Positions 5,092-27,023 of a DNA stretch of 64,000 nt are shown one piece after another (position 1 is the stretch's first letter; each line of letters begins with the position of its first letter). Both the position numbers and the translations under genes were made by a program. The notes beneath the pieces were generated by a model. That model was not told the origin of the DNA. It did not search any database and was given only the letters and a program-made list of their open reading frames with translations. The stretch spans positions 644 through 64,643 of the forward strand of contig NZ_LMOO01000005.1 of NCBI RefSeq assembly GCF_001424195.1, read 5' to 3'. The stretch comes from Cellulomonas sp. Leaf334 (GTDB lineage Bacteria; Actinomycetota; Actinomycetes; Actinomycetales; Cellulomonadaceae).

Positions 5092-5150
5092 TCGACCGGC
5101 CGCGGCGTGTGCGACGGGTGCGTGTCAGTGGTCGGTTGCACCCTGGTCCC

Positions 5151-6912: not shown

Positions 6913-6916
6913 GTCG

Positions 6917-7873: not shown

Positions 7874-7899
7874 GGATCCTCCGGATAGTCGGCGATGAC

Positions 7900-7952
7900 T
7901 TGACGGGCAGACCGAGACTATCTACCTTTTCCGCTGTACGGAACCGAGTTCC
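7900..7952 (+). promoter_or_regulatory. Promoter with two overlapping palindromic operators, probable IclR/KdgR target
   Basis: A TTGACG box at 7900-7905 and TACCTT at 7923-7928 are 17 bases apart and read toward the TRAP transporter operon. Immediately downstream, TTCCG-N5-CGGAA (7929-7943) overlaps a second palindrome, GGAAC-CGA-GTTCC (7940-7952). Half sites of the TTCCG/CGGAA type are characteristic of actinobacterial IclR-family operators. An IclR gene lies within the cluster. The site also sits 27-79 bases upstream of the divergent DUF4862 start, so one regulator could control both arms. Confidence 0.6.
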
Positions 7953-8090
7953 ATTTCCAGACAGTCACCGACGCCTGTCCCCGACGACGACGAAGTCTCG
8001 GCACGTAGCACCTCCCCGCTCTCCTCTGTATCCACCCCCCGCTGCTCGACCAGCGCGCTCACCTGCGTGAGCCGACGAAGGAGTCATCCC

Positions 8091-13755: not shown

Positions 13756-14841
13756 ATGTTGTCACACACAATATTAGATTCTGAGTTCGCCGTGGAATCC
13801 TCGGACGACGCATTCGTAGGATACACAGAATCATTTCTTCGCGCCTATACCGATGACGAAATTCCCGGGCCGACGAACCCGGTCCGCCTCACCGTCGAGG
13901 CCGACGGGACGCCGGCGCCGGACGCGCTGGCCCCGGTGCCGGTGCACCGGAGCAAGCACTCCTACTGGTCGCTCTCCGGCGACCTCCTCGAGACATCTCC
14001 GCGGACGGTGCGCTTCGCCGGACGTGGCGTCGCCGTGACGTCGGAGGCGGCCGACCGGTGGCGCGTGGCTGCGCAGCCCTGGGCGAAGCCCTCGGTCGTC
14101 GGAGAGGCCGTCTTCCACGTCCAGCGCTCGGTCGCGCTCTACCGCCGTGACAGCGCGACCGGCCCGCTGCTCCACGCGAGCGGGGTGCTGGGACGCGACG
14201 GGCGGGCGGTCCTGTTCACCGGGTCCGTCTCCGCAGGCAAGACCACCCTGCTGACCGAGGCCGTCGTCACCTACGGCGCGGTCCCGCTCACCAACGACCG
14301 TGCGTGGCTCCGCATCGACGCCGACGTCACCGTGCAGAGCTGGCCCTCCTACGCGAGCTTCTGCGAGGGGACGCTGATCACGTACCCGGTGCTCCGGGGC
14401 GCCGCGGAGCGCTTCGAGAGCGAGCGGGACAACCCGCTGCGCACGACTGCGCACCCCGAGCCCCTGAGGTACGCGTTCGACAAGGACACCAAACGCATCT
14501 ACCCGATGTCCTGGTTCACCGACGCCACGAACACCCGGTTCGTCCCGTCGGCAACGCTCGGCACGCTGGTGCTGAGCCGGCTGGAGGTCGCGCGCGGTGC
14601 CTCCGAGCTGCGGGAGCTCGACCTCACGCACGACGTGGACCGGCGGATGCTTGTCGACGTCCTGCAGGACGAGAGCTTCGACTCGCACGAGCCGTCGTTC
14701 CTGCCCTGGCACGGGCTCCCGATGCCGGTCCTGTGCTGGCCCCCCGAGAAGGTCGCCGACGCGCTGCGCGACGCCGGGGTGCGGGTGGTCGTCCTGCGGG
14801 CGGACCCGACCGAGCTGAGCGTCCTGGCGGACCTGCTGTGA
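13756..14841 (+). CDS. HPr-kinase-like P-loop protein of the peptide module (361 aa)
   Basis: A Walker A motif G156-S-V-S-A-G161-K162-T163 is followed about 20 residues later by LTNDRAWLR, at the position of the Ser-Asp motif of HPr-kinase-like proteins. HASG, upstream of the P-loop, also fits this family. Stand-alone members occur in ribosomal-peptide clusters such as the paeninodin lasso peptide, where one phosphorylates the precursor. The first 40 codons are AT-rich and use rare codons, including ACA ATA and the very rare leucine codon TTA at codon 7. The rest has normal GC bias. The start was chosen for its GGGAG ribosome site; the frame extends upstream to 13654 without one. Its stop overlaps the next start. 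The substrate is unknown; the 21-residue peptide encoded downstream is the obvious candidate. Confidence 0.65.
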   Translation: MLSHTILDSEFAVESSDDAFVGYTESFLRAYTDDEIPGPTNPVRLTVEADGTPAPDALAPVPVHRSKHSYWSLSGDLLETSPRTVRFAGRGVAVTSEAADRWRVAAQPWAKPSVVGEAVFHVQRSVALYRRDSATGPLLHASGVLGRDGRAVLFTGSVSAGKTTLLTEAVVTYGAVPLTNDRAWLRIDADVTVQSWPSYASFCEGTLITYPVLRGAAERFESERDNPLRTTAHPEPLRYAFDKDTKRIYPMSWFTDATNTRFVPSATLGTLVLSRLEVARGASELRELDLTHDVDRRMLVDVLQDESFDSHEPSFLPWHGLPMPVLCWPPEKVADALRDAGVRVVVLRADPTELSVLADLL

Positions 14842-16454
14842 CGGCTGTGTCGTCGAAGGACGTCTCCGTCGCCCACCCCCCGCGGCTCGTCCGTGTGCAC
14901 GCCGCGACCGAGCCGCCGATGCTGAACCCGCTGCGTCGCGCGGCCAAGAGCCTGGCCACGAGCGTCGTGTCCTCCTGCCTGCTCCAGTCGCTCAACGCCG
15001 TCGACGCGCGCGGCAGGTACACACCGCAGTTGCTCGCCGAGCCTCCCGCCCCGGACGACGCCGGCCGGCGGATCGCCTACCGACTCCGGGCGGACGCGCG
15101 CTGGCACGACGGGCGGCCGGTGTCGGTGCGCGACGTCGCCTTCACCCACAGCGTGATGATGGACCCGGACAGCGACATCCCGGAGCGCGACGGCTACGAC
15201 CTGATCGAGCGGATCGAGACGGTCGACGACCGGTCGTTCGTTCTGCACCTGTCCGAGGCGTACCCGTCGTACCTCGACCTGTTCACCTCGAGCACCGGAT
15301 CCATCCTGCCGGAGCACCTGCTGGGCGGGCGGCCTTTCACCTCGTCCTGGGACGTCGAGGTCAGACCGTCGTCCGGGCCGTTCCGGCTCTCCACATGGAG
15401 CCGGGGCGAGCGACTCGAGGTCACGGCGGTGGACCGGGACCGCGCTGCCGCGACGGGCATCGCCGGACTCACGTTCCGGTTCGGCGCGGACGCGGCACAG
15501 CAGATCGACGACCTGATCGAGGGCCGTGCCGACGTCGCGTCCCCCGACCTGGACACGAGCACGCTGGCCCGGGTCCAGGACTCCGGGCTGAGCTGGGGCG
15601 TGGGCCCGGGCGAGCAGTGGGAGCAGCTGTCGTTCCAGCATCGCAACCGGTGGCTCTCGCGCCGTAGCCTGCGCGAGGCGATTGCGTGGAGCATCGACAG
15701 GGACGCGCTCGCAGCGATGGTGCCCGGCACCGCTGAGGACGGCACCCGGCTGGACAGCCTCGTCCGCCGACCGCACCACCCCGACTACCGGCCGGCGTTC
15801 GCGCGGTTCCACCGCGACCCCCGACGCGCTCACGATGCCGCGTGGCGCGCCGGCCTCGACTGGTCGCGCGGCAGGCTCATCGGTGAAGGCGGCGAGCCCG
15901 TCGTGCTCCGGCTGCTGCTCGCGGACTCGAGCCGACTGCGGATCGAGCAGGCCGAGCTCATCGCCGGCTGGCTGGACGAGCTCGGCGTCGACGTCCGGCT
16001 CGACGTCACGAGCGGGCGGGACCTCCTGCACAAGCTGGCGTCCGCCGACTACGACCTCGCCCTCTTCGGCTACGCGGGGAACCCGGACCCGGTCGGCCAC
16101 AACACCCTGTGGATGGCGGACCCCGCGGGCGGGCCCCCCGGGGTGGCCGTCCACGGACAGAACTACGCCGGGTACACGAGCGCCACGGTCACGGACCTGC
16201 TGCGTCAGACGACGCTCGAACCGGACCAGCGCCGACGTTCGCAGCTGTTCGCCGCGGCCGACGAGGTCATGGCACAGGACCTGCCGAGCCTGCCGCTGTT
16301 CGTCTTCCCGTCGTTCGTCGCGTGGCGCCCGCACCTCGAGGGACCGACGCCCTACCCGTACCAGGCCGGCCCCCTCTGGAACGTCGCGGAGTGGACGCTC
16401 CGCGATCTCCCCGAGCGCGCCTCGGGGGTCCACACAGCCGAGCAAAGGTGGTGA
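14838..16454 (+). CDS. Family 5 (oligopeptide-type) solute-binding protein without signal peptide (538 aa)
   Basis: The chain matches SBP_bac_5 proteins from its first residues. VRVHAATEPPMLNPL matches the start of the mature domain, WHDGRPVSVRDVAFTHS is the family signature, and ALFGYAGNPDP with NYAGYTSATV lies near the C-terminus. Homologues bind oligopeptides outside the cell for Opp/Dpp importers. Here the GTG start, overlapping the kinase stop, leaves no room for a signal peptide or lipobox, and no Opp permease is nearby. The protein is therefore expected to stay in the cytoplasm. The 21-codon peptide gene begins six bases after its stop. A role in binding or presenting that peptide to modifying enzymes is an inference. 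The fold call is firm. Confidence 0.8.
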   Translation: MTAVSSKDVSVAHPPRLVRVHAATEPPMLNPLRRAAKSLATSVVSSCLLQSLNAVDARGRYTPQLLAEPPAPDDAGRRIAYRLRADARWHDGRPVSVRDVAFTHSVMMDPDSDIPERDGYDLIERIETVDDRSFVLHLSEAYPSYLDLFTSSTGSILPEHLLGGRPFTSSWDVEVRPSSGPFRLSTWSRGERLEVTAVDRDRAAATGIAGLTFRFGADAAQQIDDLIEGRADVASPDLDTSTLARVQDSGLSWGVGPGEQWEQLSFQHRNRWLSRRSLREAIAWSIDRDALAAMVPGTAEDGTRLDSLVRRPHHPDYRPAFARFHRDPRRAHDAAWRAGLDWSRGRLIGEGGEPVVLRLLLADSSRLRIEQAELIAGWLDELGVDVRLDVTSGRDLLHKLASADYDLALFGYAGNPDPVGHNTLWMADPAGGPPGVAVHGQNYAGYTSATVTDLLRQTTLEPDQRRRSQLFAAADEVMAQDLPSLPLFVFPSFVAWRPHLEGPTPYPYQAGPLWNVAEWTLRDLPERASGVHTAEQRW

Positions 16455-16459
16455 GACAG

Positions 16460-16525
16460 ATGGCATTGATTCGAATCGCGGTTCGCCTCAACAAGGCCCA
16501 GCCCAAGAAGTCGAGCACCAAGTGA
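16460..16525 (+). CDS. 21-residue cationic peptide, candidate ribosomal peptide precursor
   Basis: The gene lies five bases after the solute-binding protein stop, with AAAGGTGGTG as a good ribosome site before its ATG. The peptide begins MALIRIAVRLNK and ends KKSSTK. It carries two Arg and four Lys and no acidic residue. An amphipathic first half is followed by a Pro, a Lys pair and a Ser-Ser-Thr-Lys tail. There is no Cys, so classic lanthipeptide or thiazole chemistry from Cys is excluded. A strong hairpin follows the stop, as often seen after precursor genes. Neighbouring HPr-kinase-like, nucleotidyltransferase and GNAT-like proteins could modify its Ser/Thr, C-terminus or Lys residues. The frame is open upstream, so a longer product from GTG 16451 or 16448 is possible. 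It is too short for codon statistics to prove. Confidence 0.6.
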   Translation: MALIRIAVRLNKAQPKKSSTK

Positions 16526-16528
16526 GTC

Positions 16529-16573
16529 GTGACCCGGGGTGTCCCGATCTCGTGACGGGCCACTCCGGGTCAC
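16529..16573 (+). terminator. Long stem-loop between the peptide gene and the rest of the operon
   Basis: GTGACCCGG (16529-16537) pairs perfectly with CCGGGTCAC (16565-16573). Pairing continues inward through one G-U and three Watson-Crick pairs, one mismatch, and CCCG with CGGG, closing a nine-base loop: about 17 pairs in all. It starts four bases after the peptide stop, has no T run, and is followed by a good ribosome site for the next gene. It probably works as an attenuator or 3'-end stabiliser that gives the peptide mRNA a higher level than the downstream genes. Confidence 0.7.
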
Positions 16574-16605
16574 CCCACCCCCAGCACCGCCCGAAGGAGG
16601 TCATG

Positions 16606-17379
16606 ATGGCGACCGCATCGATCACGGCCGGAGTGTTCTGCGACCCGGTCGCGGGTCAGGACTACGTGTACGTCGCCGAGCTTCCCGCCATCGCATCCGC
16701 GGACCCCGGCAGCATCCGCGACTCCCTGCGCAGGGCGGTGGCGGAGCACGGTCCCGGACAGCCGCTCCTCGTCCGCGCGGACGCGGGCACCACGCTCCCC
16801 GGGGCGTGGGAGCCGTTCATGACCTTCGTGCGGTTCCGTCGCCTGCCGGCCGACCAGGTCGGCCCCGCCGACGAGCCCCCACAGCCTGCGGTGACGATCG
16901 GCCCGGTGGATGTCCAGGCCGACATCGAGGCCCGCGACGCTGTTCTCGGCTGGCTCGAGCTCGCCCTCCGTCGCGGCTACGACGAGGAGGGGATCGCGGC
17001 AGACGTGGCACGACGATGGGCGCACGAGATCGCCGCCGACACGGACGCCGAGTCCATCGTGGCGCGGGTCGACGGTCGGCCCGTGGGCCACCTGACGTAC
17101 CGGACGGCCGAGGACGACGTGACCGGCGAGCGGTACATCGAGCTGGTGGACGTCCTGGTCGACGGGCCTGATCGGTCCTGGCGCACCTGGGTCGAGCGCG
17201 CACTCGTCCGGTCGGCCGACGCGACGGCCGGCGCGCTCGGCCGATCACTCGTCGGCAACGTGGTCCACGCGGCGGGAGACGAGGGCGCGGAGCGTGCGCG
17301 CACCGTGATCCGGGGCCTCACCGGCTCCGGCTGGGACGTCCTGTACACCGTCTGGCTCTCGCAGGAGGAGTGGGCATGA
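16606..17379 (+). CDS. GNAT-fold-like protein of the peptide module (257 aa)
   Basis: A GAAGGAGG ribosome site precedes the ATG, with a second ATG one codon upstream. The first 95 residues resemble nothing I can name. Residues 100-257 look like a GNAT acyltransferase: a strand-turn-strand SIVARVDGRPVGHLTYR, then ELVDVLVDG, an alpha-helical stretch, and a C-terminal GLTGSGWDVLYTVW that resembles the last GNAT strands. A clear acetyl-CoA pyrophosphate loop (Q/RxxGxG/A) is not obvious, so this could be a degenerate member. A lysine-rich peptide encoded just upstream would be a natural acyl acceptor. The pantaphos cluster also encodes a GNAT protein. The stop overlaps the next gene (ATGA). Confidence 0.5.
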   Translation: MATASITAGVFCDPVAGQDYVYVAELPAIASADPGSIRDSLRRAVAEHGPGQPLLVRADAGTTLPGAWEPFMTFVRFRRLPADQVGPADEPPQPAVTIGPVDVQADIEARDAVLGWLELALRRGYDEEGIAADVARRWAHEIAADTDAESIVARVDGRPVGHLTYRTAEDDVTGERYIELVDVLVDGPDRSWRTWVERALVRSADATAGALGRSLVGNVVHAAGDEGAERARTVIRGLTGSGWDVLYTVWLSQEEWA

Positions 17380-18443
17380 GGATCACCGCGGACCAGGTGG
17401 AGGCCGCCCTCGGGCTCGACCCCGAGGACGGGCCCTACCTGAACCTGCGCAAGGCCGACGCGGTACACCACAGCGTCGGCAACCTGATGCTCTCGCTGTG
17501 GGAGCAGGCCGGTGCACCGCTCAGCCCCGCCGCGACGGCGACCCTGGCACGGCAGCGGGCCCGCGTCGCCCGGTACGACGAGTGCGAGAGCCGCATCCGC
17601 GCGGCGGGGATCGACTTCCGGGTGGTCAAGGGCCGGACGATCGGTGACCTGTACCCCGCCGGCGTGCTGCGGGCGCAGACCGACCTCGATCTCGTGGTCG
17701 GCTCCGTGGACGACCTGTGGACCGCCGCGCTGCTGCTCGTCGACGACCTGGGCTTCGACTCGGTCGACCTCACGGTCGTCGAGGGAACGGAACGGGAGCT
17801 GTACGTCGCGCTGAGCGCCCCCGCCGAGGACGAGTACTACGACAAGCCGCTGTCGGTCGAGCTGTCGACCGTCCTGTACTACGGCGACTCCGACACCGTC
17901 CCGTTGCGTCGCGGCGTGCCCGCCGACCAGGTCGTCGCCAACGTCCTCGCGCTGTCCGAGGAACGGTTCCAGCGGCCGTTCCATGTCCGCGACGTGCTCG
18001 ACCTCGGCGTGCTCTGCGACCAGCTGACGCCCGAGCGTCGGGCGAGCCTGCTCGCCGCGGTCGAGTCGTACCGGCTCGCGCCCGAGCTGGTGGAGCTCGT
18101 CGAGCTCGCCCGGGCCCACGGGATCGCAGCAACGCTCGACGACGAGCTCGTGGACCTGCGGGACGCGGCCGAGCGGGAAGCCGCTCGGCGCCGGACCACG
18201 GCGGCTCGCGGCGACGAGGGGCTCGGGCTCAGCTTCGGCATCCTCGTCCCCGGATCCCGCCTACGGTCCGGGTGGTCGGTCGAGCGGAGCCAGATGGCAG
18301 GCACCGACGTCCTCGTCACACCACTCGGGACCTTCGTGCTCACCAGCAACGCCGTGCTGTCGCCCGAGACGTTCGACGCCGTTCAGGCCGCCGTCGCGCA
18401 GCTCGTCGCCGACGAGCTCGACGCAGGAGGGTCGGCGACGTGA
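17376..18443 (+). CDS. Nucleotidyltransferase family protein (NTP_transf_5-like, 355 aa)
   Basis: The central motif FRVVKGRTIGDLYP, with K85 and G86, is followed by LRAQTDLDLVV, whose D103-x-D105 pair matches the metal-binding acidic residues of the nucleotidyltransferase family PF14907. Such proteins recur in lasso-peptide and related ribosomal-peptide clusters beside HPr-kinase-like proteins, but their reaction is largely undefined. The C-terminal 100 residues (after a DERVDL-like charged helix) end in a strand-rich segment, GTDVLVTPLGTFVL. A GGAGG ribosome site and the ATGA overlap with the previous gene support the start. Transfer of NMP to the peptide or to the phosphonate is possible. 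No substrate can be read from the sequence. Confidence 0.7.
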   Translation: MRITADQVEAALGLDPEDGPYLNLRKADAVHHSVGNLMLSLWEQAGAPLSPAATATLARQRARVARYDECESRIRAAGIDFRVVKGRTIGDLYPAGVLRAQTDLDLVVGSVDDLWTAALLLVDDLGFDSVDLTVVEGTERELYVALSAPAEDEYYDKPLSVELSTVLYYGDSDTVPLRRGVPADQVVANVLALSEERFQRPFHVRDVLDLGVLCDQLTPERRASLLAAVESYRLAPELVELVELARAHGIAATLDDELVDLRDAAEREAARRRTTAARGDEGLGLSFGILVPGSRLRSGWSVERSQMAGTDVLVTPLGTFVLTSNAVLSPETFDAVQAAVAQLVADELDAGGSAT

Positions 18444-19414
18444 CGGACGCGCTCGCGATCGAGGCCACCGACCTGACCCGGACGTTCGTCACGGGCAAGG
18501 GCCGTGCCCGTCGCACGCGTACAGCACTGGACGCGGTCGGTCTCCGGGTCGAGCAGGGCTCTGTGCACGGCCTGCTCGGCCCGAACGGGGCAGGGAAGTC
18601 CACGTTCGCCAAGATCCTCACCACGATCCTGCTCCCGACGTCCGGGACGGCCACCGTTCTCGGGCACGACGTCGTCCGGGAAGCCGCGCAGGTGCGCCGC
18701 TGCGTCGCGCTCGTGCTCGGCGGCGACCGGGGCCTCTACCCGCGGCTCAGCCCCGCGCAGAACCTGGAGTTCTGGGCGGCGGCCTACGGCATGGGCAGGA
18801 CCAGGCCCACCCGCGACGCCGTCGGGGCCGTGCTGGGTCAGGTCGGGCTCGGTGACGTCGACTACGCCGTCGAACGGTTCAGCAGGGGCATGAAGCAGCG
18901 TCTGCACCTGGCCCGGGCGCTCCTGGTGAACCCTCGCATCCTCGTGCTCGACGAACCGACGATGGGCATGGACCCCGCCGCGGCCCACGCCTTCCGTGCG
19001 CTCGTGCAGGACGTGAACCGGCGGGGTGTCACCGTGCTGATGACGACCCACGACATGCGCGAGGCCGAAGCTGTGTGTGACCGGGTCACGCTGATCGACG
19101 GGGGCCACATCCGGTTCAGCGACACCCCGGCCGAGCTCCGGTCGCGGGCGCGCGGGGAAGCGCGCGTCGAGGTCTACGACTTCGCCGGCAGGGCGCCGGA
19201 GGACGTCGCGGCAGAGGTCGCACGGCGTCCGTCGGTCGACGCGGAGCTCCGCACCGACGGTGTCCTGTCGGTCGCGGTCCGCGACGGCGGGTCGATCGGT
19301 GACCTGCTCCAGTACCTCGTCGCCGCCGGGCTCCACGACTTCGCGGTGATGCGTCCGACCCTCGAGGACGTCTACCTCCAAGCGGTCGGGGATCGAGGCA
19401 TGCATGTCGGCTAG
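18440..19414 (+). CDS. ABC transporter ATP-binding protein (324 aa)
   Basis: It has Walker A GPNGAGKST near residue 48, an ABC signature at SRGMKQRLHLARALL, Walker B ILVLDEPTMGMDP, and the switch histidine in MTTHDMREAE. The C-terminal 90 residues resemble the accessory domain of DrrA/NatA-type exporters. It overlaps the preceding nucleotidyltransferase gene (GTGA) and the following permease gene by eleven bases. With the two ABC-2 membrane proteins it forms an exporter, most simply for the product of this operon, and would also give self-protection. Confidence 0.9.
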   Translation: MTDALAIEATDLTRTFVTGKGRARRTRTALDAVGLRVEQGSVHGLLGPNGAGKSTFAKILTTILLPTSGTATVLGHDVVREAAQVRRCVALVLGGDRGLYPRLSPAQNLEFWAAAYGMGRTRPTRDAVGAVLGQVGLGDVDYAVERFSRGMKQRLHLARALLVNPRILVLDEPTMGMDPAAAHAFRALVQDVNRRGVTVLMTTHDMREAEAVCDRVTLIDGGHIRFSDTPAELRSRARGEARVEVYDFAGRAPEDVAAEVARRPSVDAELRTDGVLSVAVRDGGSIGDLLQYLVAAGLHDFAVMRPTLEDVYLQAVGDRGMHVG

Positions 19415-20189
19415 AGGTGCCTTGGCGGGCCTGATCGGCAGCGCGCGGCTCGAGGCGGTGATCCTCCGGCGCTCCCCGGTCGACGTCCTGTTCCTGATCA
19501 CCGTCCCGCTGCAGACGATGGGCGTGATCGCGGTGCTCCGGTACGCCGGGCGACCGGACCTGGAGTTCACGGCGGTCCTCGCGCCGGCACTCATGGCCCT
19601 GTGGCAGAACGCGCTGTTCGTCTGCGGCGAGCTCGTCACCAAGGACCGCGACAACCAGCGGCTGGAGCTGCTCGTGTCGTCGCCGATGTCCTTCTACGGC
19701 TACCTGTGCGGTCGCGTCGGCGCGGTGACCGCCTTCTCGCTCGTGGTGTTCGCCGAGGCGATCGCGTTCGGCTGGCTCGCCTTCGGCGTCGCACCGTCCT
19801 TCTCCCAGCTCGGCCCGGCGGCGGTGACCCTCGTCGTGACCGCCCTGGCGACCGTCGCGACGTCGATCCTGCTGTCGATCGTCTTCGTGAACACCAGAAA
19901 CCCGCACACGTACCAGAACGCCCTCGGCTACCCGATGTTCATCCTCGGCGGTGTCCTGGTCCCCGTCTCGATCTACCCGGAGTGGCTCGAGATCGCCTCG
20001 CGGTTCGTCTACCTCTCGTGGGCGTCCGACCTGTTCCGCGACACGCTCGGTGCCGGAACGGCGGAGGACTGGGCCCCACGCTGCGCCGTGATCCTCGGGC
20101 TCGGTCTGGTCACCGCGCTGCTCGGCGGCGTCCTCGTGCGACGCACCCTGCGGCATGCCCGACAGGAGGGTCGCCTTGCGCTCACCTGA
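19404..20189 (+). CDS. ABC-2 type permease, first subunit (261 aa)
   Basis: Six hydrophobic segments are visible, with the ABC-2 features LFVCGELVTKDRDNQRLELL, a cytoplasmic loop after the second helix, and YPMFILGGVLVPVSIYPEWL between helices five and six. The ATG lies inside the end of the ATP-binding gene, so translation is coupled. Together with the next protein it forms a heterodimeric membrane channel. Confidence 0.85.
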   Translation: MSARGALAGLIGSARLEAVILRRSPVDVLFLITVPLQTMGVIAVLRYAGRPDLEFTAVLAPALMALWQNALFVCGELVTKDRDNQRLELLVSSPMSFYGYLCGRVGAVTAFSLVVFAEAIAFGWLAFGVAPSFSQLGPAAVTLVVTALATVATSILLSIVFVNTRNPHTYQNALGYPMFILGGVLVPVSIYPEWLEIASRFVYLSWASDLFRDTLGAGTAEDWAPRCAVILGLGLVTALLGGVLVRRTLRHARQEGRLALT

Positions 20190-21015
20190 CACGATCGAGC
20201 GCGCGGTCGTCCGGCCCCTGCCGGTGCTCCGCGCCGCGATGGGCACCGGACGCGCGGACCTCGCAGCGCGGTACACGTGGTGGACCTGGGGCCTCGGCTG
20301 GGTGCTGAGGGGTGCGTTGGAGGTCAGCTTCTTCGCGTTCCTCGGCATCCTGCTCGAACGGCCGGACATCACCCGTGATCTGCTGATCGGTCGAGGGATC
20401 TTCCTGGGCGCCCTCGAGATGATGCTCGTCGTCCAGACGGTCGGCTGGGAGCGGCAGGGCGGCACGCTCCCCCTGCTGATGATGGCGCCGACGCGGGTCT
20501 GGCCGGCGTTCGTCGGCCGGGCGTGCCAGTGGGTCCCGAGCGCCATCATCACGCCGCTCGTGGTCCTCCTGGTGGTCGGTCCCGTGTTCGGGCTGTCGTT
20601 CACCGGCCCGCAGGTGGCCGGCCTCGCCGGTGCGGTCGTCGTGACCAGCCTGGCGTCCCTGGGCTTCTCCCTCGTCGTCGCGGCGGTCGTGCTGCGGGCG
20701 CCCGACACGCGCAATCTCGTCTCCAGCGTGGTCCAGGTCGCCGTCGCGCTGCTCTGCGGGGTGTTCGTCCCCATCAGCTACTGGCCCGCAGCGGTCCAGG
20801 CCGTCGCCCAGGTGGTCCCGCTGACGCACACGATCGAGGCGGTCCGCAGATCCATGGTCGGCGAGGGCACCTGGGCGGAGGTCGTCGCGGCGTCGTCGGG
20901 ACCCCTGCTCGTCGCCGCCGGACTGGGCGCCGTGTGGCTCGTCCTCGGCTGTCTCCTCATCGAGCGGTACGCGCACGCCGGGCGCGACGACGGCCGGATC
21001 GACCTCGACGAATGA
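20176..21015 (+). CDS. ABC-2 type permease, second subunit (279 aa)
   Basis: A TTG start at 20176 is preferred because a perfect AGGAGG lies seven bases upstream; an in-frame ATG at 20155 has no ribosome site. About six membrane segments are present, with GWERQGGTLPLLMMAPTR in the first cytoplasmic loop and LCGVFVPISYWPAAVQAVAQ near the C-terminal half, as in NodJ/DrrB-like permeases. It overlaps the first permease gene by 14 bases. The next gene, for PEP mutase, starts 43 bases downstream, still compatible with one transcript. Confidence 0.85.
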   Translation: MRSPDTIERAVVRPLPVLRAAMGTGRADLAARYTWWTWGLGWVLRGALEVSFFAFLGILLERPDITRDLLIGRGIFLGALEMMLVVQTVGWERQGGTLPLLMMAPTRVWPAFVGRACQWVPSAIITPLVVLLVVGPVFGLSFTGPQVAGLAGAVVVTSLASLGFSLVVAAVVLRAPDTRNLVSSVVQVAVALLCGVFVPISYWPAAVQAVAQVVPLTHTIEAVRRSMVGEGTWAEVVAASSGPLLVAAGLGAVWLVLGCLLIERYAHAGRDDGRIDLDE

Positions 21016-21058
21016 CCTGCGACCACCACCCATGTCCCCGACCCCGAAGGAGGCTTCC

Positions 21059-21976
21059 ATGATCGTCCGGAGCGTGTCCCACGACGTCAGACGAGCGAGT
21101 CTGCGTGAACGCCTCGAGCTCGAGGGTTTCGTCCGGCTCCTCGAGGCTCACGACCCGCTCTCGGCGATGGTCGGGGAGAACGCGACGGCGGTCCTGCCCG
21201 AGGTCGGGCACGTCGAGTTCGACGGCTTCTGGTCGAGCTCGCTGACGGACTCGGCGCGGCGCGGGCTCCCGGACATCGAGCTGGTCGGCATGCGGAGCCG
21301 GCTCCAGGGCATCGCGGAGATGTTCGCTGTCACGTCGAAGCCGCTGCTGATGGACGGTGACACCGGTGGTCGCGTCGAGCACTTCGAGTACACCGTGCGC
21401 GACCTGGAACGCGCCGGGGTGTCGGGTGTCGTCATCGAGGACAAGACGGGGCTGAAGCAGAACTCGCTGCTCGGCACCAGCGTGCCGCAGCTCCTGGAGA
21501 CGGTCGAGGCCTTCTCGGAGAAGATCGCGCGGGGGAAGGCGGCCCAGTCCCGGCCGGAGTTCATGATCGTGGCACGCATCGAGAGCCTCATCCTCGGCAT
21601 GCCCATGGACGACGCCCTGCACCGGGCGAGCGCGTACGTCAGCGCCGGGGCCGACGCGGTCATGATCCACAGCCGGCAGAGCTCGCCCCGCGAGGTCCTC
21701 GCGTTCGCCGCACTCTTCCGTGCGGCGCACCCGACGGTGCCGCTGGTCGCGGTCCCGACCACGTACAACACGATCCGCGCCGAGGACCTGCGTGCCGCCG
21801 GGTTCAACGTCGTCATCTATGCCAACCACATGCTGAGGGCGTCGTTGCGCGCGATGGACGCCGTCGCCCGCAAGATCCTGAACCACGACAGGACCCTCGA
21901 GGTCGAGCCAGCGTGCGCGGACCTGAAGGACCTCCTGACGGTCGAGGTCGAGTCCGGCAGGGCCGTCGGGGCATGA
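21059..21976 (+). CDS. Phosphoenolpyruvate phosphomutase (305 aa)
   Basis: The signature EDKxxxxxNS of PEP mutases is present as E127-D-K-T-G-L-K-Q-N135-S136. It separates the family from isocitrate lyase and methylisocitrate lyase relatives. Upstream are GFWSSSLTDSARRGLPD and KPLLMDGDTGG, the substrate- and Mg-binding loops. The enzyme rearranges PEP into phosphonopyruvate, the committed step of nearly all C-P bond natural products. No phosphonopyruvate decarboxylase is encoded here. Instead the next gene carries a homocitrate-synthase-like domain that can pull the unfavourable equilibrium by condensation with acetyl-CoA. An AAGGAGG ribosome site precedes the ATG, and the stop overlaps the next start (ATGA). 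Confidence 0.93.
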   Translation: MIVRSVSHDVRRASLRERLELEGFVRLLEAHDPLSAMVGENATAVLPEVGHVEFDGFWSSSLTDSARRGLPDIELVGMRSRLQGIAEMFAVTSKPLLMDGDTGGRVEHFEYTVRDLERAGVSGVVIEDKTGLKQNSLLGTSVPQLLETVEAFSEKIARGKAAQSRPEFMIVARIESLILGMPMDDALHRASAYVSAGADAVMIHSRQSSPREVLAFAALFRAAHPTVPLVAVPTTYNTIRAEDLRAAGFNVVIYANHMLRASLRAMDAVARKILNHDRTLEVEPACADLKDLLTVEVESGRAVGA

Positions 21977-24510
21977 CGGACCGTCGTCGCGAGCTCGTGC
22001 TCGGCGCGTACCTCTCGTACGCGGCGGGCCACCACGCGGCAGCGTGGCGTCACCCGAACGCCGTGCCGGAGGGTGCGTCGCAGCTGGCGCACTTCGCGCG
22101 CCTCGCGAGCACCGCGGAGCGGGGGCTGTTCGACTTCCTGTTCCTGGCGGACACCCCGTCCGTCTTCAACGACGACCGGGCCGGTTACGGCGGGCGGGTC
22201 GTGGGGCTCGAGCCGCTGACCCTGCTCGCCGCGCTCGCGGCGACGACGACCGACCTCGGCCTCGTCGCCACCGCCTCGACGAGCTACACGGAGCCCTACA
22301 ACCTCGCCCGGCAGATGGCGACGCTCGACCACCTCAGCAGCGGACGGGCGGGGTGGAACCTGGTCACCTCCTCGAAGGGTGCGGCGGCCTTGAACTTCGG
22401 GCTCGAGTCGCAGGCTGACCACGGTCTGCGGTACGAGCGGGCCGCCGAGTACCTGGACGTCGTGACCCGGCTGTGGGACAGCTGGGAGGACGACGCGATC
22501 GTCCGCGACAAGGCGGCCGGGATGTACTACCGGCCCGACAGGCGACACCCGGCGGCGTTCCGCGGGACGCACGTGAGCGTGGCCGGCGAGCTCAACGTCG
22601 CCCGGCCGCCGCAGGGCCATCCGGTCGTCGTCCAGTCCGGGTCGTCCGAGGCCGGGCTCCGGCTGGCGGCGAGCGGGGCCGACCTCGTGTTCACGGCTCA
22701 GGGGTCGCTGGCCGACGCGACGGCCTTCGCCGACGGGCTGCGGGCCCGTACCGCACGACTGCGCCCCGGCGCCCGGCCCCCGCTCGTCCTGCCGGGGATC
22801 TCCCCCTATGCGGCGGCGACCCGGGCGAAGGCCTCCGCCCGGCTCGCCGAGCTCGAGGCGCTCATCCACCCGGAGCTCGGGGTCAGCATGCTCGGCGACC
22901 TGCTCGGGGGGATGGACCTGCGGGGCTACGACGTCGACGGTCCGCTCCCGGACCTCCCGCCGTCCAACGGCAACCAGAGCAGGCGCAGGCTGATAGAGCG
23001 CATGGCGCACGACGAGGGCCTGACGATCCGCCAGCTGTACTTGCGGCTGACCGTCTCCCGTGGCCACCTGACCGTCGTCGGAACCTACGACGAGGTGGCC
23101 GACACGATGGCCGAGTGGTTCGACGCGGGAGCGGCCGACGGCTTCAACGTCATGCCACCGCTGCTCCCGGACTGCCTCGACGACTTCGTGGAGCACGTCG
23201 TACCCCGGCTCCAGGACAGGGGCCTGACGAAGCGTGCCTACCGCCCGGGGACGCTGCGGCAGAAGCTCGGCCTCCTCCGTCCCACCAATCGCCACACGAG
23301 CGCGAGGGCGCTCGTGGGACCACCGACCGACCGATCGCCCGGACCGGTCACGACCACGTCAGGAGACGACATGCGCAACGACCTCATCCTCGAGGACACG
23401 ACCCTGCGGGACGGCGAGCAGGCGCCCGGCGTCGCCTTCTCGGCCGACACCAAGGTCGCGATCTTCGATGCCCTCGTGGACGCGGGGGTCCGCTGGATCG
23501 AGGCGGGCATCCCGGCCATGGGCGGCCAGGACGTCGCCGCGATGAAGCGCATGCTCGAGCGGCGCGACGAGGTGAACCTGGTCGGGTGGAATCGGGGTGT
23601 GCTCGACGACCTGAGGTACACGATGTCGCTCGGGTTCCGGGTGGTGCACCTGGGCCTGCCGACGTCCTCGCTGCACCTGCAGCACAGTGTCAAGAAGGAC
23701 CGCGCGTGGCTGCTGTCGACGGCGCAGGACATGGTCAAGTTCGCGAAGGACCAGGGATGTTTCGTGTCCATCAGCGCGGAGGACATGGGGCGCACGGAGA
23801 TCGGGTTCCTGCAGGAGTACGCAGTCGCCGTGCGCGATGCCGGCGCCGACCGGCTGCGACTCTCGGACACGGTGGGGATCCTCGACCCCGAGGGCTATGC
23901 GGCCCGCGTCCGCGCGGTGGTCGAGGCGTCGGACATCGATCTGCAGACCCACTGCCACAACGACTTCGGTCTCGCTGTGGCGAACACCCTCGCAGGGCTC
24001 CGGGCGGGTGCGCGCTACTTCCACGTGACGGTCAACGCCGTCGGCGAGCGGGCTGGGATGCCGGACCTCGCCCAGACGGTCCTCGCGCTGCGGCAGTTCC
24101 ACGACGTGGACCTCGGCATCGACCTGACGGCGCTCGGTGCGGTCTCCCGGCTCGTCGCGGATGCCAGCGGCCACCAGATCGCACCCTGGCAGCCGATCGT
24201 CGGGTCGAACGTGTTCGCCCACGAGTCGGGAATCCACACCAACGGGATGCTGAGCGAGTCGAGCACCTTCGAGCCGTTCCCGCCGGAGCTCGTGGGCGGC
24301 GAGCGTCTTCTCCTGATCGGCAAGCACTCGGGACGCGCCATGATCAGGCACACGCTGGACGAGGTCGGGGTCGACGTCGACCCGTCGGTGATGGACGAGC
24401 TTCTCGTCGAGGTTCGTGAGCTGGCGATCCGGAACCGGAGCACAGTGAGCACGCCCGAGCTGGTCGACCTCTACGAGTCGGTCTGCGCGCGCGTGCGGGT
24501 CGCGGTCTGA
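21973..24510 (+). CDS. Flavin-dependent monooxygenase read in frame with a 2-phosphonomethylmalate-synthase-like enzyme (845 aa)
   Basis: Residues 1 to about 436 are a luciferase-like FMNH2-dependent monooxygenase of the NtaA/DszA group (LVLGAYLSYAAGHHAAAW, TSYTEPYNLARQMATLDHLS, GRAGWNLVTS). From Met467 on the chain is a DRE-TIM acyl-CoA condensing enzyme like homocitrate synthase and FrbC: TTLRDGEQAPGVAFS, THCHNDFGLAVANT and NAVGERAGMPDLAQT are its metal- and substrate-site motifs. No stop codon separates them. The 30-residue linker is rich in Pro, Thr, Arg and Ser. An AGGAG site lies five bases before the Met467 codon, so the second enzyme may also be made separately. In the pantaphos pathway the two functions are separate proteins (HvrB, HvrC): condensation of phosphonopyruvate with acetyl-CoA, and a late hydroxylation. 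A flavin reductase partner is not in this window. Confidence 0.85.
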   Translation: MTDRRRELVLGAYLSYAAGHHAAAWRHPNAVPEGASQLAHFARLASTAERGLFDFLFLADTPSVFNDDRAGYGGRVVGLEPLTLLAALAATTTDLGLVATASTSYTEPYNLARQMATLDHLSSGRAGWNLVTSSKGAAALNFGLESQADHGLRYERAAEYLDVVTRLWDSWEDDAIVRDKAAGMYYRPDRRHPAAFRGTHVSVAGELNVARPPQGHPVVVQSGSSEAGLRLAASGADLVFTAQGSLADATAFADGLRARTARLRPGARPPLVLPGISPYAAATRAKASARLAELEALIHPELGVSMLGDLLGGMDLRGYDVDGPLPDLPPSNGNQSRRRLIERMAHDEGLTIRQLYLRLTVSRGHLTVVGTYDEVADTMAEWFDAGAADGFNVMPPLLPDCLDDFVEHVVPRLQDRGLTKRAYRPGTLRQKLGLLRPTNRHTSARALVGPPTDRSPGPVTTTSGDDMRNDLILEDTTLRDGEQAPGVAFSADTKVAIFDALVDAGVRWIEAGIPAMGGQDVAAMKRMLERRDEVNLVGWNRGVLDDLRYTMSLGFRVVHLGLPTSSLHLQHSVKKDRAWLLSTAQDMVKFAKDQGCFVSISAEDMGRTEIGFLQEYAVAVRDAGADRLRLSDTVGILDPEGYAARVRAVVEASDIDLQTHCHNDFGLAVANTLAGLRAGARYFHVTVNAVGERAGMPDLAQTVLALRQFHDVDLGIDLTALGAVSRLVADASGHQIAPWQPIVGSNVFAHESGIHTNGMLSESSTFEPFPPELVGGERLLLIGKHSGRAMIRHTLDEVGVDVDPSVMDELLVEVRELAIRNRSTVSTPELVDLYESVCARVRVAV
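23295..23365 (+). other. Hairpin and internal ribosome site inside the fusion linker
   Basis: In the stretch coding for the interdomain linker, CACGAGCGC (23295-23303) and GCGCTCGTG (23308-23316) form a perfect nine-pair stem on a four-base loop. It is followed by AGGAG at 23361-23365, five bases before ATG 23371. Both look like former intergenic signals, as if two genes once had a stop here, or as if the second domain is still started independently. Confidence 0.55.
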
Positions 24511-24511
24511 G

Positions 24512-25747
24512 ATGGCACCCCGTCCCACGCCGTTGGTGAACCGGATCGTCGCGGAACGTGCCGGCCGAGCCACCGTCGATGTCGGTGAGCTGCTGTTCGT
24601 CGACGTCGACCGCGTCTACGTCCAGGACGGCAACTCGCCGACGATCGCCCGGCTCTACCGCCAGCACGGCCTGTCGACCGTGTTCGACCCGGAGCGCGTC
24701 GCGTTCGTCTTCGACCACACGGTCCTCGTCCCCAACCGCGAGATGGCCGACCGCATCGGCGAGGCGGAACGGTTCGCGCGAGAGCTCGGGGTCCAGGTCT
24801 TCGGTCGCGGCGCGGGGATCAGCCACCTTGTCGCGCTCGAGGAGGGCTGGTACGTCCCGGGGAACGTGGTTCTCGGCTCCGACTCCCACACGTGCGTCGG
24901 CGGAGCGCTCCAGTCGCTGGCCCTGGGGATGGGCGCCACGGACATCGCGGCCGCCATGGTGACCGGCCGGACGTGGCTCAAGGTGCCCGACACCGTGTGG
25001 CTGCACGTGTCTGGGACGCCGCACGCGTCCGTGCGACCCAAGGACGTCCTCCTCGAGGTGCTGCGCCGCTTCGGGATGGACGCCTTCCTGTACAGGTCCG
25101 TGCAGTGGACGGGTCCGTGGGTGGAGTCGCTGAGCGAGGACTCCGCGGCGTCGGTGGCGAGCATGGGCGTCGAGATGGGAGCGAAGTGCGTCTTCCTGCC
25201 GCCGCGTCCGGGCTCCCCTGAGGGCCTGGTCCCGACCGCGGCCGGTCCCGGTGACCGCGTCCTCGAGCTGGACGTGTCGACGTTGTCGCCGATGGTCTCG
25301 TTGCCGCACTCGCCGCACGGCTCCGTCCCCGTCGACGAGCTCGGAGGGCGGCCCGTCGACTACGTGTTCGTCGGCACGTGCACGAACGGGCGGCTCGAGG
25401 ACATCGCCGAGATCGCCGGCCTGGTCGAGGGGCACCGCGTGGCGCCGTCGGTGCACTTCGTGGTCACGCCCGGGTCGCGCCAGACCTACCTCGACGCGAT
25501 CTCGGCGGGGTACGTCGCCACCCTCGTCGAGGCCGGCGCGATCGTGACCCCGCCAGGCTGCGGGGCGTGCGTGGGGACCCAGGGGTCCGTGCCGGCGTCG
25601 GGCAGCACCGTCCTGACGACGATGAACCGGAACTTCAAGGGCCGGATGGGCAACCCGGACGCCGGCATCCACCTGTCGTCGCCCCTCGTGGCAGCGACCG
25701 CGGCCCTCCTGGGACGGTTCCCGACGAGGGAGGACCTGCCCGGATGA
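24512..25747 (+). CDS. Aconitase-family large subunit, probable phosphonomethylmalate isomerase/dehydratase (LeuC-like, 411 aa)
   Basis: The three cysteines that hold the [4Fe-4S] cluster are visible as C290 in GTCTNG and C350 and C353 in PGCGACVG. SDSHTCVGGALQSLALGMGATD is split here into SDSHTCVGG and the following helix. The chain fits the short archaeal-type LeuC/homoaconitase large subunit. Its place directly after PEP mutase and the condensing enzyme, and the small subunit encoded next, indicate that it acts on 2-phosphonomethylmalate, as HvrD/HvrE do, rather than on isopropylmalate. The expected step is dehydration to a phosphonomethylmaleate. No leuA or leuB is nearby. The start lies one base after the preceding stop. 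Confidence 0.85.
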   Translation: MAPRPTPLVNRIVAERAGRATVDVGELLFVDVDRVYVQDGNSPTIARLYRQHGLSTVFDPERVAFVFDHTVLVPNREMADRIGEAERFARELGVQVFGRGAGISHLVALEEGWYVPGNVVLGSDSHTCVGGALQSLALGMGATDIAAAMVTGRTWLKVPDTVWLHVSGTPHASVRPKDVLLEVLRRFGMDAFLYRSVQWTGPWVESLSEDSAASVASMGVEMGAKCVFLPPRPGSPEGLVPTAAGPGDRVLELDVSTLSPMVSLPHSPHGSVPVDELGGRPVDYVFVGTCTNGRLEDIAEIAGLVEGHRVAPSVHFVVTPGSRQTYLDAISAGYVATLVEAGAIVTPPGCGACVGTQGSVPASGSTVLTTMNRNFKGRMGNPDAGIHLSSPLVAATAALLGRFPTREDLPG

Positions 25748-26256
25748 GCATCTACCGCGTCGTGCCCGTCTCCGGGGTGATCTCGACCGACGACATCATC
25801 CCCGCCCGGTACAAGCACATGTACACCGACCCCGACGAGCTGGCACCGCACGTGTTCGAGCACCGGTTCCCGGGTCTGGCGGCGCAGTTCGAGACCGGCG
25901 ACGCCGTGGTCGGGGACTCGACGTTCGGCATCGGCAGCTCGCGCGAGCAGGCGGTCTCCGCGTTGCTCGGTTGCGGTGTCCGGCTCGTCGTCGCCCCGTC
26001 GTTCGGCCGGATCTTCTACCGCAACTGTTGGAACCTTGGCCTGCCCGCGATCGAGCTGGAGACCGCCTCGCTCGTCACCGCCGGCCAGCTCGACGTGAGT
26101 CTGCAGACGGGGACGGTTGTCGTGGGTGACGAAGTTGTGCGCTTCGCCTCGCCCGCGCCGCTGATGATCGACATGGTGGGAGCAGGCGGGCTCCTGGCGA
26201 TGGTGCTCCGGGACCGAGGTGCACCGGCAGGAACTGACGGAAGGATGCAGGCATGA
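25744..26256 (+). CDS. Aconitase-family small (swivel) subunit, LeuD-like (170 aa)
   Basis: The protein has the small-subunit landmarks STDDIIPARYKHMYT near residue 14 and GDSTFGIGSSREQAVSALLGCGVR split by the conserved substrate loop GIGSSREQA near residue 63, then FGRIFYRNCWNLGLP. It pairs with the LeuC-like subunit to form a two-subunit hydro-lyase. The ATG overlaps the large-subunit stop, and the stop overlaps the methyltransferase start, so subunits are made in step. Confidence 0.88.
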   Translation: MSIYRVVPVSGVISTDDIIPARYKHMYTDPDELAPHVFEHRFPGLAAQFETGDAVVGDSTFGIGSSREQAVSALLGCGVRLVVAPSFGRIFYRNCWNLGLPAIELETASLVTAGQLDVSLQTGTVVVGDEVVRFASPAPLMIDMVGAGGLLAMVLRDRGAPAGTDGRMQA

Positions 26257-27023
26257 CGACGAAGCAGAAGTTCGACGACCTGGCGACCGACTACCACGCG
26301 AGCCGTCCCCGCTACCCTGCCGCGCTGCTGGCGCAGATCGTCGAGCACCTGCCGGCGCGGTCGCCGCTGACGGTCGTCGACGCCGGCGCCGGCACGGGGA
26401 TCGCTCTCGAAGGGCTGATCCCGCTGCTCGGCGACGCGCACCGTTATCTCGCGGTCGACGTGTCCGCCGGGATGGTCGACGCCGGTCGGGCGGCGTTCCC
26501 GACGGTCGACTGGGCGGTCGGCACCGCGGAGCCGTACCTCGAGGGCCTCGACCACCGCGTCGAGCTGGTCATCGCCGCGCAGGCCTACCAGTGGATGGAG
26601 CGCGAGCGTTTCGTGCGCGCCAGCCTGGATGCCCTGACGTCCGACGGTGTGCTCGCGATCGTCCAGAACAACCGTGACCACGACGGCAGCGAGTTCCTGG
26701 GTGCCTACGAGGACCTCCTCGAGACGTTCAGCCCGGGGTACTCGCGCGCGTACCGCGACTTCGACGTCGCCGCGGAGCTGGCGGCGCAGGTGGAGCCCCG
26801 CGGTGGTCGGGTGGAGACCTCGGTGGTCGGCTGGACGCGTCCGATGGGTGTTCAGGAGTTCGTGCAGATGTCGTCGTCGTCCACCCAGGTGCAGCGTGCG
26901 GTCGCGGCGGAGGGCCCCGGGTTCCTGGATCGCGTCGCCGAGCTGTCGGCGGAGCACGCGCAGGGCGGCCAGCTCGCGCTGCTCTACCGCTCCGAGCTGT
27001 ACCTGGGGTTGCGCGCCGGCTGA
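26253..27023 (+). CDS. Class I SAM-dependent methyltransferase of the phosphonate operon (256 aa)
   Basis: Motif I VVDAGAGTGIALE near residue 42 and the acidic residue in YLAVDVSAGMVDAG define the SAM site. ITAAQAYQW-like residues (VIAAQAYQWMERERF) follow where trans-aconitate-type methyltransferases have a similar segment. The pantaphos cluster places a methyltransferase at the same position after its LeuD-like gene. A carboxyl or phosphonate O-methylation of a phosphonomethylmaleate would fit resemblance to trans-aconitate methyltransferases. It is the last gene of the operon and converges on the RamB gene with a 15-base gap. Confidence 0.8.
   Translation: MTTKQKFDDLATDYHASRPRYPAALLAQIVEHLPARSPLTVVDAGAGTGIALEGLIPLLGDAHRYLAVDVSAGMVDAGRAAFPTVDWAVGTAEPYLEGLDHRVELVIAAQAYQWMERERFVRASLDALTSDGVLAIVQNNRDHDGSEFLGAYEDLLETFSPGYSRAYRDFDVAAELAAQVEPRGGRVETSVVGWTRPMGVQEFVQMSSSSTQVQRAVAAEGPGFLDRVAELSAEHAQGGQLALLYRSELYLGLRAG

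Follow-up and report, generated by a model that had tools for sequence, protein, structure and literature searches.

A conserved actinobacterial gene unit couples pantaphos-type phosphonate genes to a short peptide gene and putative peptide-tailoring genes

Within the window (the whole 64,000-nucleotide stretch of Cellulomonas sp. Leaf334 DNA that was analysed), positions 13756-27023 hold 13 open reading frames (ORFs) packed on the + strand, with inter-ORF gaps of -14 to +77 nt and overlaps at 8 of the 12 junctions (successively -4, 5, 77, -4, -4, -11, -14, 43, -4, 1, -4 and -4 nt). These measured junctions bear out the single, tightly packed operon-like unit of the original prediction (one transcript is predicted); its list of at least 13 same-strand genes likewise holds, save that it missed a GNAT-like gene at 16603-17379. 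ORFs 1-8 encode an HprK/PEPCK-fold kinase, a signal-less OppA-like protein, a 21-codon peptide, a GNAT-like protein, an NTP_transf_5 protein and an ABC exporter (3 ORFs), and ORFs 9-13 encode the equivalents of HvrA to HvrF (HvrB and HvrC in one fused ORF). The domain scans, with Pfam or NCBIfam, covered all 13 ORFs, 7 of which went through both. RNA folding revealed no stable hairpin in the permease-PepM gap of either the window or the related Nocardiopsis operon (see below), and alignment of the upstream regions no clear shared operator.

The phosphonate half opens with an HvrA-like PEP mutase (21059..21976, + strand; motif EDKTGLKQNS; TIGR02320 380.5 bits, cut-off 319.55; PEP_mutase Pfam match 1.4e-54), which is 69.2% identical to its counterpart in Nocardiopsis sp. 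NRRL B-16309 and 51.4% to that of Pantoea agglomerans. It is followed by the fused HvrB-HvrC (21973..24510, +), in which an FMN monooxygenase of the NtaA/DmoA type (TIGR03860, 508 bits) is joined to a phosphonomethylmalate-synthase-like, HMGL/homocitrate-synthase-like domain (Bac_luciferase and HMGL-like in the Pfam scan), with a possible internal start at 23371; the HvrB part is 71.2% (Nocardiopsis) and 50.9% (Pantoea) identical, the HvrC part 79.9% and 63.3%, and in Nocardiopsis the two are encoded separately. Further downstream lie an HvrD-like (LeuC-type) dehydratase large subunit (24512..25747, +; NF001614 above cut-off; 78.6% and 54.5%), an HvrE-like (LeuD-type) small subunit (25744..26256, +; TIGR02087 above cut-off; 61.8% and 48.4%) and an HvrF-like SAM methyltransferase (26253..27023, +; Methyltransf_25 1.3e-8; 61.6% and 40.3%). 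The ordered HvrA-F set, together with a TIGR02320 score above cut-off, characterizes the block as pantaphos-type. The predicted hvrA-F composition and order thus stand, being those of the P. agglomerans cluster, and the predicted gene set needs amendment only in that flavin monooxygenase and condensing enzyme form one fused ORF.

At the other end of the unit, the kinase-like protein (13756..14841, +; 361 aa; P-loop GSVSAGKTT) is encoded by a gene with a TTA at codon 7 and a possible alternative start upstream (GTG 13654). It has no Pfam match, and its AlphaFold model (pLDDT 93.9) shows a PEPCK/HprK fold which, together with the P-loop, places it in the HprK/PEPCK clan. A plasmid search with the kinases gave no match, and a genus search aimed at Arthrobacter (the genus searched was probably another) gave 0 of 11 genomes. 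The next ORF encodes a family-5 solute-binding (OppA/DppA-like) protein of 538 aa (14838..16454, +; PF00496, SBP_bac_5, 8.7e-45), predicted to be cytosolic: neither the window nor the Nocardiopsis protein has the hydrophobic N-terminus of a signal peptide or lipobox, the peak 15-residue hydrophobicity in its first 45 residues is 0.44 (1.49-2.50 in six distant relatives), and two close relatives likewise begin directly at the mature domain, as the original prediction of a signal-less protein would have it. The loss of the OppA/DppA Asp, the residue gripping the peptide amine, was dropped as a clue, since the alignment shows it missing also in distant binding proteins with lipoprotein-like N-termini. 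Around distant matches of the binding protein in three genomes (29-32% identity; 3 candidates scored per genome in a first look), the stretches examined held no other cluster genes except generic ABC ATPases, and a kinase homolog was found in 0 of these 3 genomes at E 1e-5.

The GNAT-like acyltransferase (16603..17379, +; 258 aa) reaches Acetyltransf_1 at 0.01, below cut-off, and its low-confidence model (pLDDT 63.4) matches GNAT folds, with the RimI-type 7n1l as the best; no canonical acetyl-CoA loop was seen in the protein. In a metagenomic relative it is fused to NTP_transf_5, and a plasmid search with the GNAT-NTP_transf_5 DNA gave no match. The NTP_transf_5 nucleotidyltransferase-like protein itself (17376..18443, +; 355 aa; PF14907 5.2e-9, 36.5 bits, cut-off 31.2) has K85-G86 and D103-x-D105 in common with that of Nocardiopsis, residues that presumably are of functional importance. 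The exporter consists of a DrrA-like ATPase (18440..19414, +; PF00005, ABC_tran, 3.8e-27; DrrA1-3_C 2.4e-5, below cut-off) and two ABC-2 permeases (19404..20189 and 20176..21015, both +; PF01061, ABC2_membrane, 4.5e-13 and 6e-13). Neither a ligase nor a protease nor a macrocyclase was recognised by Pfam/NCBIfam in the 13 ORFs.

Between the genes for the binding and GNAT-like proteins lies the predicted 21-codon peptide gene (MALIRIAVRLNKAQPKKSSTK), whose coordinates are here set to 16460..16525 (+), 5 nt 3' of the binding-protein gene and with a 5-nt Shine-Dalgarno (SD) match. Its Nocardiopsis counterpart is a 14-codon basic peptide with a 10-nt SD match and the identical 5-nt spacing from the OppA-like gene. 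Both peptides start with Met-Ala, both short ORFs are Lys-rich at the 3' end, and each peptide has 4 Lys (binomial 4e-5 and 6e-6, against a Lys share of 0.99% in the operon's proteins). When the two gaps were resampled 20,000 times with a Markov model, a comparable ORF arose in a fraction of 0.0003 and 0.0006 of the cases, under criteria chosen after the sequences had been seen (ATG ORF of 13-45 aa, SD match spanning 4 nt or more, at least 4 Lys). Directly 3' of the peptide stop codon an RNA hairpin without a U-run is predicted (16526..16575, +; z -2.51, and -4.30 in Nocardiopsis), ranking by strength 2 of 2644 overlapping 50-nt windows in the window operon and 1 of 2533 in the Nocardiopsis one. 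Such a hairpin 3' of a precursor gene is usual where the precursor must outnumber its enzymes. Because Nocardiopsis keeps the position, the 5-nt spacing, the SD and the 3' hairpin, the peptide gene is, judged from sequence, very probably real; common descent of the two peptides rests on position, since they are short and only loosely alike. As in both intact genomes a short ORF with its own ribosome-binding site is encoded beside possible tailoring genes, we infer that the peptide is a RiPP precursor.

The conservation extends to the unit as a whole: Nocardiopsis sp. NRRL B-16309, which belongs to a different order of actinobacteria, carries every position of the 13-gene unit in the same order and with junction spacings that are all equal or nearly so, and 12 of the 13 window proteins (the 21-residue peptide is the exception) find their match there in order, at 33-79% identity. 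The co-occurrence of PEP mutase, signal-less binding protein and short peptide elsewhere in actinobacteria, proposed as a check, is thereby found. Besides the two intact genomes, deletion remnants with genes of both halves occur in Glycomyces fuscus and in a genome taken as Cellulomonas oligotrophica, so that the halves are linked in the 4 genomes with readable context (2 intact, 2 remnants); the presumed linkage does not extend to Pantoea and Stammera, where the hvr half stands without the peptide half. For Streptomyces thermoviolaceus, passages of PMC12723261 report the hvr half as another type, also without the peptide half. Elsewhere in the host family nothing was found beyond the host's own genome, be it with PepM (1 of 220 genomes at E 1e-60, up to 10 candidates scored per genome) or with the binding protein (1 of 221 at E 1e-30, 6 candidates per genome). 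Such absences are no proofs, because few candidates were scored per genome in a first look (3, 5, 6 or up to 10), and in protein searches only the 7994-7999 sharing most words. The join of the two halves is no accident of this genome, and the unit was very probably inherited whole, since Nocardiopsis repeats its order and spacing and the remnants carry parts of both halves.

Among known systems, the closest likeness is to the pantaphos hvr cluster of Pantoea (PMC7858074, in passages), in which HvrA-F stand in the same order and are 40-63% identical (P. agglomerans, whose cluster annotation follows the hvrA-K order published there). Unlike that cluster, the window has no recognised HvrJ or flavin reductase, nor any family match in the 13 ORFs to its ATP-grasp and MFS exporter genes (a feature that not all nine hvr types share), and instead has the kinase, the cytosolic binding protein, the peptide, the GNAT-like and NTP_transf_5 proteins, the ABC-2 exporter and the fused HvrB-HvrC. 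Type IX hvr-like clusters (Polidore et al. 2021, PMC7858074) are described in passages as lacking the ATP-grasp and having 'several additional enzyme families', and for this reason may include the present cluster; the main text has 0 occurrences of 'ribosomal' and 'Nocardiopsis', and its passages name no type IX members or peptide gene. Two clusters that we assign to the FR-900098 type from their gene content likewise have PEP mutase, phosphonomethylmalate-synthase-like and LeuCD-like genes, but they carry an isocitrate-dehydrogenase-like gene (no match in the 13 ORFs), and the 19 kb examined gave a match to neither HvrB nor HvrF.

The first half finds its parallel in the lasso peptides paeninodin and pseudomycoidin, where an HprK-type kinase and a nucleotidyltransferase likewise share a ribosomal-peptide operon; in phosphoglycosylated lasso peptides they form a tailoring pair (passages of PMC8498205). 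The lasso-type pair of the original prediction is thus a known one, while its assignment of the lasso enzyme to NTP_transf_5 was not confirmed (PF14907 absent, PMC7533575). In contrast to lasso operons, the 13 ORFs have no match to the Asn-synthetase-like C cyclase or the transglutaminase-like B protease, and the Nocardiopsis peptide lacks the C-terminal Ser that is the phosphorylation site in these lasso peptides. As that peptide is free of hydroxyl residues (Ser, Thr and Tyr), paeninodin-style Ser phosphorylation was rejected as a general mechanism; a C-terminal Ser is absent also from the window peptide, which ends ...SSTK. In microcin C, a very short ribosomal peptide carries the toxic group. 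The window peptide may be such a carrier, but its prospective warhead, a C-P compound, differs, and the 13 ORFs have no match to a ThiF-type domain like that of the microcin C enzyme MccB. Among the titles and abstract openings listed by the literature searches, no phosphonate-RiPP hybrid was found.

On these grounds we consider, with a probability of roughly 0.45, that the unit makes a phosphonate warhead attached to a ribosomal peptide, the two leaving the cell as a single molecule, the covalent link between the two being our leading, if still tentative, reading. In line with the proposal in PMC7858074, and with later enzymology of the pathway, the HvrA-F enzymes would use PEP and acetyl-CoA to make phosphonomethylmaleate as well as its hydroxylated derivative. 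The OppA-like protein would hold the nascent peptide in the cytosol as a substitute peptide-recognition element, and Met would be removed from both Met-Ala peptides. Activation of the warhead would fall to the nucleotidyltransferase-like protein, and its attachment to the peptide, perhaps at the Ala amine, to the GNAT-like protein. The substrate of the kinase would be the phosphonate moiety or a carboxylate, not a peptide hydroxyl, because the Nocardiopsis peptide has none; the exporter would secrete the conjugate, which might enter rivals via oligopeptide importers. We count in favour of this conjugate the conserved whole unit, the spacing, SD and Lys content of the peptide, the 3' hairpin, the remnants, the hvrA-F order, the RiPP kinase and nucleotidyltransferase pair, the GNAT-NTP_transf_5 fusion and the lack of a permease-PepM hairpin, and against it the missing ligase, protease or macrocyclase match, the Nocardiopsis peptide without hydroxyls, the loosely alike peptides, the occurrence elsewhere of the kinase family and of the hvr half alone, the low-confidence GNAT model and the number of intact genomes (two).

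The same gene evidence would also serve a peptide that is a carrier or leader for building or tailoring the phosphonate and is then released, with export of a free small phosphonate. The exporter resembles DrrAB, which handles small molecules, but the domain scans of the 13 ORFs picked out neither a protease nor a releasing enzyme (host enzymes could serve), and we hold this course of events to be rather unlikely. Somewhat less probable again is a regulatory leader peptide (of the erm/cat or Lys-attenuator style) that controls the GNAT, nucleotidyltransferase, exporter and hvr genes of a product without peptide: the 14-21 codons, the Lys-rich 3' ends and the strong hairpin right after the stop are in line with it, whereas the mid-operon position and the missing U-run are not. 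Furthermore, the pairing of the ORF with the 5' arm of the hairpin was matched by 226 of 300 and 188 of 300 shuffled ORFs, the main hairpin does not include the GNAT SD (unpaired with a mean probability of 0.51 and 0.38), no mutually exclusive, attenuator-like pairing was found in the two genomes, and the signal-less binding protein upstream, at constant spacing, would be left unexplained.

That the first half provides self-protection (FomB-like kinase, Pat-like GNAT, sponge binding protein, exporter) for a free pantaphos-type phosphonate, with the peptide as an accessory, we judge improbable, although an N-acetyltransferase gene also lies within the hvr cluster (P. agglomerans; passages of PMC7858074). 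The FomB-family match of the kinase that would point to it (E 0.043) is far under the cut-off (12.9 against 400 bits). Moreover, relatives of the kinase (among the best 7994-7999 candidates by shared words) are present in Arthrobacter (A. zhaoguopingii) and Paenibacillus (P. riograndensis), and we know of no phosphonate link for these. Least credible, and by a wide step, is a pheromone that leaves through the ABC transporter and is sensed inside the cell by the OppA-like protein, which would gate production; the signal-less SBP_bac_5 protein adjoins the peptide gene, and cytosolic SBP_bac_5 domains do occur in regulators such as SgrR, but no DNA-binding domain match was obtained on this protein or on the other ORFs of the 13.

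Returning to the phosphonate-peptide conjugate, a bolder and more doubtful form of it would see here the first known phosphonate-RiPP hybrid, a ribosomal Trojan-horse phosphonate in which a nucleotidyltransferase-activated, pantaphos-type C-P warhead is GNAT-acylated onto a basic peptide of 13-20 residues presented by a cytosolic OppA-like protein. If true, the suspicion of peptidic pantaphos derivatives voiced by Polidore et al. (in passages of PMC7858074) would become directly testable, Nocardiopsis sp. NRRL B-16309 being one suitable strain, a periplasmic-type binding protein would gain a role inside the cytosol, and the RiPP kinase/nucleotidyltransferase pair would reach beyond lasso peptides. 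The unit would then typify a natural-product class with a gene-encoded peptide as the vehicle of its C-P warhead, so that the carrier would be open to plain mutagenesis.

Thirteen consecutive + strand ORFs extend from 13756 to 27023 in the 4.74 Mb host genome, and their 12 junctions (-4, 5, 77, -4, -4, -11, -14, 43, -4, 1, -4 and -4 nt) bear out the tightly packed run, from kinase through methyltransferase, of the original prediction (range -14 to 77 nt). The first half encodes, in order, an HprK/PEPCK-clan kinase-like protein, a family-5 binding protein (SBP), a 21-residue peptide, a GNAT-like protein, an NTP_transf_5 protein, an ABC ATPase and two ABC-2 permeases; the second half opens with PEP mutase (PepM) and a fused FMN monooxygenase/phosphonomethylmalate-synthase-like protein, followed by LeuC-like and LeuD-like subunits and a methyltransferase (domain scans covered ten ORFs with Pfam and ten with NCBIfam, each of the 13 being scanned at least once). 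The operon is flanked 5' by uronate-type catabolic genes (TRAP transporter, KduI, IclR, SDR) and 3' by an HTH/IrrE-type regulator, isocitrate lyase and malate synthase. It is located in a variable island, since a relative's genome (G046), in which the adjacent regulator is 99% identical, has about 2.9 kb in place of 6899-27048; this 20-kb stretch beside the isocitrate lyase regulator comprises the TRAP/KduI/IclR/SDR genes together with the operon. A single TTA, the codon of bldA-type control of secondary metabolism, was found among the 4397 operon codons (stops counted), at 13774-13776 (codon 7 of the first gene).

The phosphonate half had been predicted to share the composition and order of hvrA-hvrF, and a Pantoea agglomerans plasmid cluster (L004) indeed matches its proteins in identical order (HvrA 51.4%, HvrB 50.9%, HvrC 63.3%, HvrD 54.5%, HvrE 48.4% and HvrF 40.3% identity). 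In contrast, two plasmid clusters taken as FR-900098-type (L043 and L044) have an isocitrate-dehydrogenase-like gene and show no match to HvrB or HvrF in the 19 kb fetched; these differences assign the window's phosphonate half to the pantaphos type. HvrB and HvrC form a single ORF in the window (21973-24510) and two overlapping genes in Nocardiopsis; an in-frame internal ATG at 23371, with GGAGA upstream, might yield a separate HvrC. Six hvr genes, methyltransferase included, reportedly suffice for pantaphos according to later enzymology. In the proposed pathway, as outlined in PMC7858074, HvrA converts PEP to phosphonopyruvate, HvrC performs the condensation with acetyl-CoA, HvrDE the dehydration and HvrB the hydroxylation.

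The join of the two halves recurs beyond the window. A scan of genome contigs that used the SBP alignment as query gave 54 matching stretches, 2 of which encode a relative. In Nocardiopsis sp. NRRL B-16309 (L005; order Streptosporangiales, as compared to Micrococcales for Cellulomonas), tblastn recovers 12 of the 13 window proteins at 33-79% identity and with the order unchanged, but gives no match for the window peptide; the methyltransferase is truncated by the end of L005 (full-length identity to Nocardiopsis 61.6%). The junctions (-4, 5, 85, -4, -4, -11, -14, 37, -4, -4 between HvrB and HvrC, 1, -4 and -4; the start codon of the first gene was picked among several) are nearly equal to those of the window. 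The surroundings read as integrase- and transposase-like ORFs upstream and a P450-type ORF downstream, and none of seven window flank proteins was matched in the stretches around relatives' units (L018-L021). Deletion remnants, each with genes from both halves, were identified in Glycomyces fuscus (kinase, SBP start, HvrC end and HvrD-F) and in the same-genus genome G050 (part of the kinase, HvrD end, HvrE and HvrF). These remnants (stretches L006, 8817-14020, and L018, 7608-9827) reflect two distinct internal deletions of the thirteen-gene unit, both of which keep the kinase and methyltransferase ends and lack peptide, exporter and PepM. Metagenomic contigs of equal size suggest further linkage of SBP with NTP_transf_5 (P0002 and P0103, 11,828 bases) and of SBP with kinase (P0003 and P0070, 5,272 bases). 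The predicted union of the halves stands in its intact form in Nocardiopsis and as remnants in Glycomyces fuscus and G050; the hvr half also occurs without a window-type peptide half in Pantoea, on a Stammera plasmid and, as reported in PMC12723261, as type VI in Streptomyces thermoviolaceus. The Stammera plasmid (pStNi2 of the beetle symbiont Candidatus Stammera capleta, CP144792.1, 9425 bp, unannotated) matches PepM, HvrB, HvrC, HvrD, HvrE and HvrF in order at 2201-8092 (34-57% identity) and, judged by these matches, is a bare hvrA-F set; no paper with both 'Stammera' and 'phosphonate' was found in the open-access literature searched.

The unit is rare. Among the approximately 8000 candidates sharing most words that were scored in each protein search, NTP_transf_5 has 3 relatives besides its own and the kinase 34 (named members in Arthrobacter and Paenibacillus), while SBP has 4 close relatives besides its own (52-56% in the alignment), the next reaching 31% among 65 proteins listed. 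SBP was detected in 1 of 221 genomes of its own family (E 1e-30) and in 4 of 396 of the phylum (E 1e-60; 3 of these at 29-32% identity), PepM in 1 of 220 of the family (E 1e-60), and the kinase in 1 of 200 of the Nocardiopsis family (E 1e-10), 2 of 396 of the order (E 1e-20; its own and G050), 1 of 394 of the class and 0 of 11 of one other genus. Kinases such as P0078, P0088 and P0090, from Arthrobacter zhaoguopingii, Paenibacillus riograndensis and metagenomes, have no close SBP or NTP_transf_5 relative on equal-sized contigs among the matches listed.

The 21-codon peptide gene is probably real. Nocardiopsis encodes at the same place, from an ATG start, the counterpart MAVVANKPRLEKKK (L005:5062-5106), preceded by 10 contiguous nt of match to the anti-Shine-Dalgarno sequence (5 in the window). 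Although Lys makes up 0.99% of the operon proteins, each peptide contains 4, for which the binomial probability is 4e-5 with 20 residues and 6e-6 with 13. When each gap was resampled 20,000 times with a Markov model, fractions of 0.0003 and 0.0006 produced an ATG-initiated ORF of 13-45 aa that had 4 or more Lys and a Shine-Dalgarno match of 4 nt or longer; these fractions were 0.051 and 0.096 with the Lys condition dropped (criteria chosen after the sequences were seen). In both genomes a hairpin starts within a few nt downstream of the peptide stop, the folded stretch having -36.7 kcal/mol (z -2.51, equalled in stability by 4 of 200 shuffles) in the window and -46.4 kcal/mol (z -4.30; 0 of 200) in Nocardiopsis, and ranking 2 of 2644 and 1 of 2533 among overlapping 50-nt operon windows, respectively. 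The short ORF could alternatively be a leader-peptide attenuator, a reading against which the RNA pairing analysis argues. Neither genome shows a stable fold between exporter and PepM (-4.1 and -5.1 kcal/mol), and folding thus gives no sign there of the transcript stop that had been named as counting against a single operon.

Regarding function, the expectation that HPr-kinase-like and nucleotidyltransferase proteins accompany lasso peptides agrees with PMC8498205, in whose account of lasso operons they are a known tailoring pair (the kinase acts on a C-terminal Ser by phosphorylation, and sugar addition is linked to the nucleotidyltransferase). As a general reaction here, such Ser phosphorylation is ruled out by the Nocardiopsis peptide, which contains no Ser, Thr or Tyr; because of this composition, the phosphonate or a carboxylate would be the more fitting substrate of the kinase. 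Coupling of phosphonate and peptide would then fall to the GNAT/nucleotidyltransferase pair, and the signal-less OppA-like protein would hold the peptide. Besides such a conjugate, the peptide could be a carrier that is released later or a pheromone, and the first half could be a self-protection set.

Both halves are of known kinds; in keeping with the original prediction, we found no description of a cluster combining a phosphonate with a ribosomal-peptide half in the open-access literature. The window cluster may belong to type IX of Polidore et al. 2021, described as having other enzyme families and no ATP-grasp (PMC7858074), or to the families with the same intermediate that the flavophos preprint leaves unresolved (PMC12871164). 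If a phosphonate-peptide conjugate were shown, it would represent a new class.
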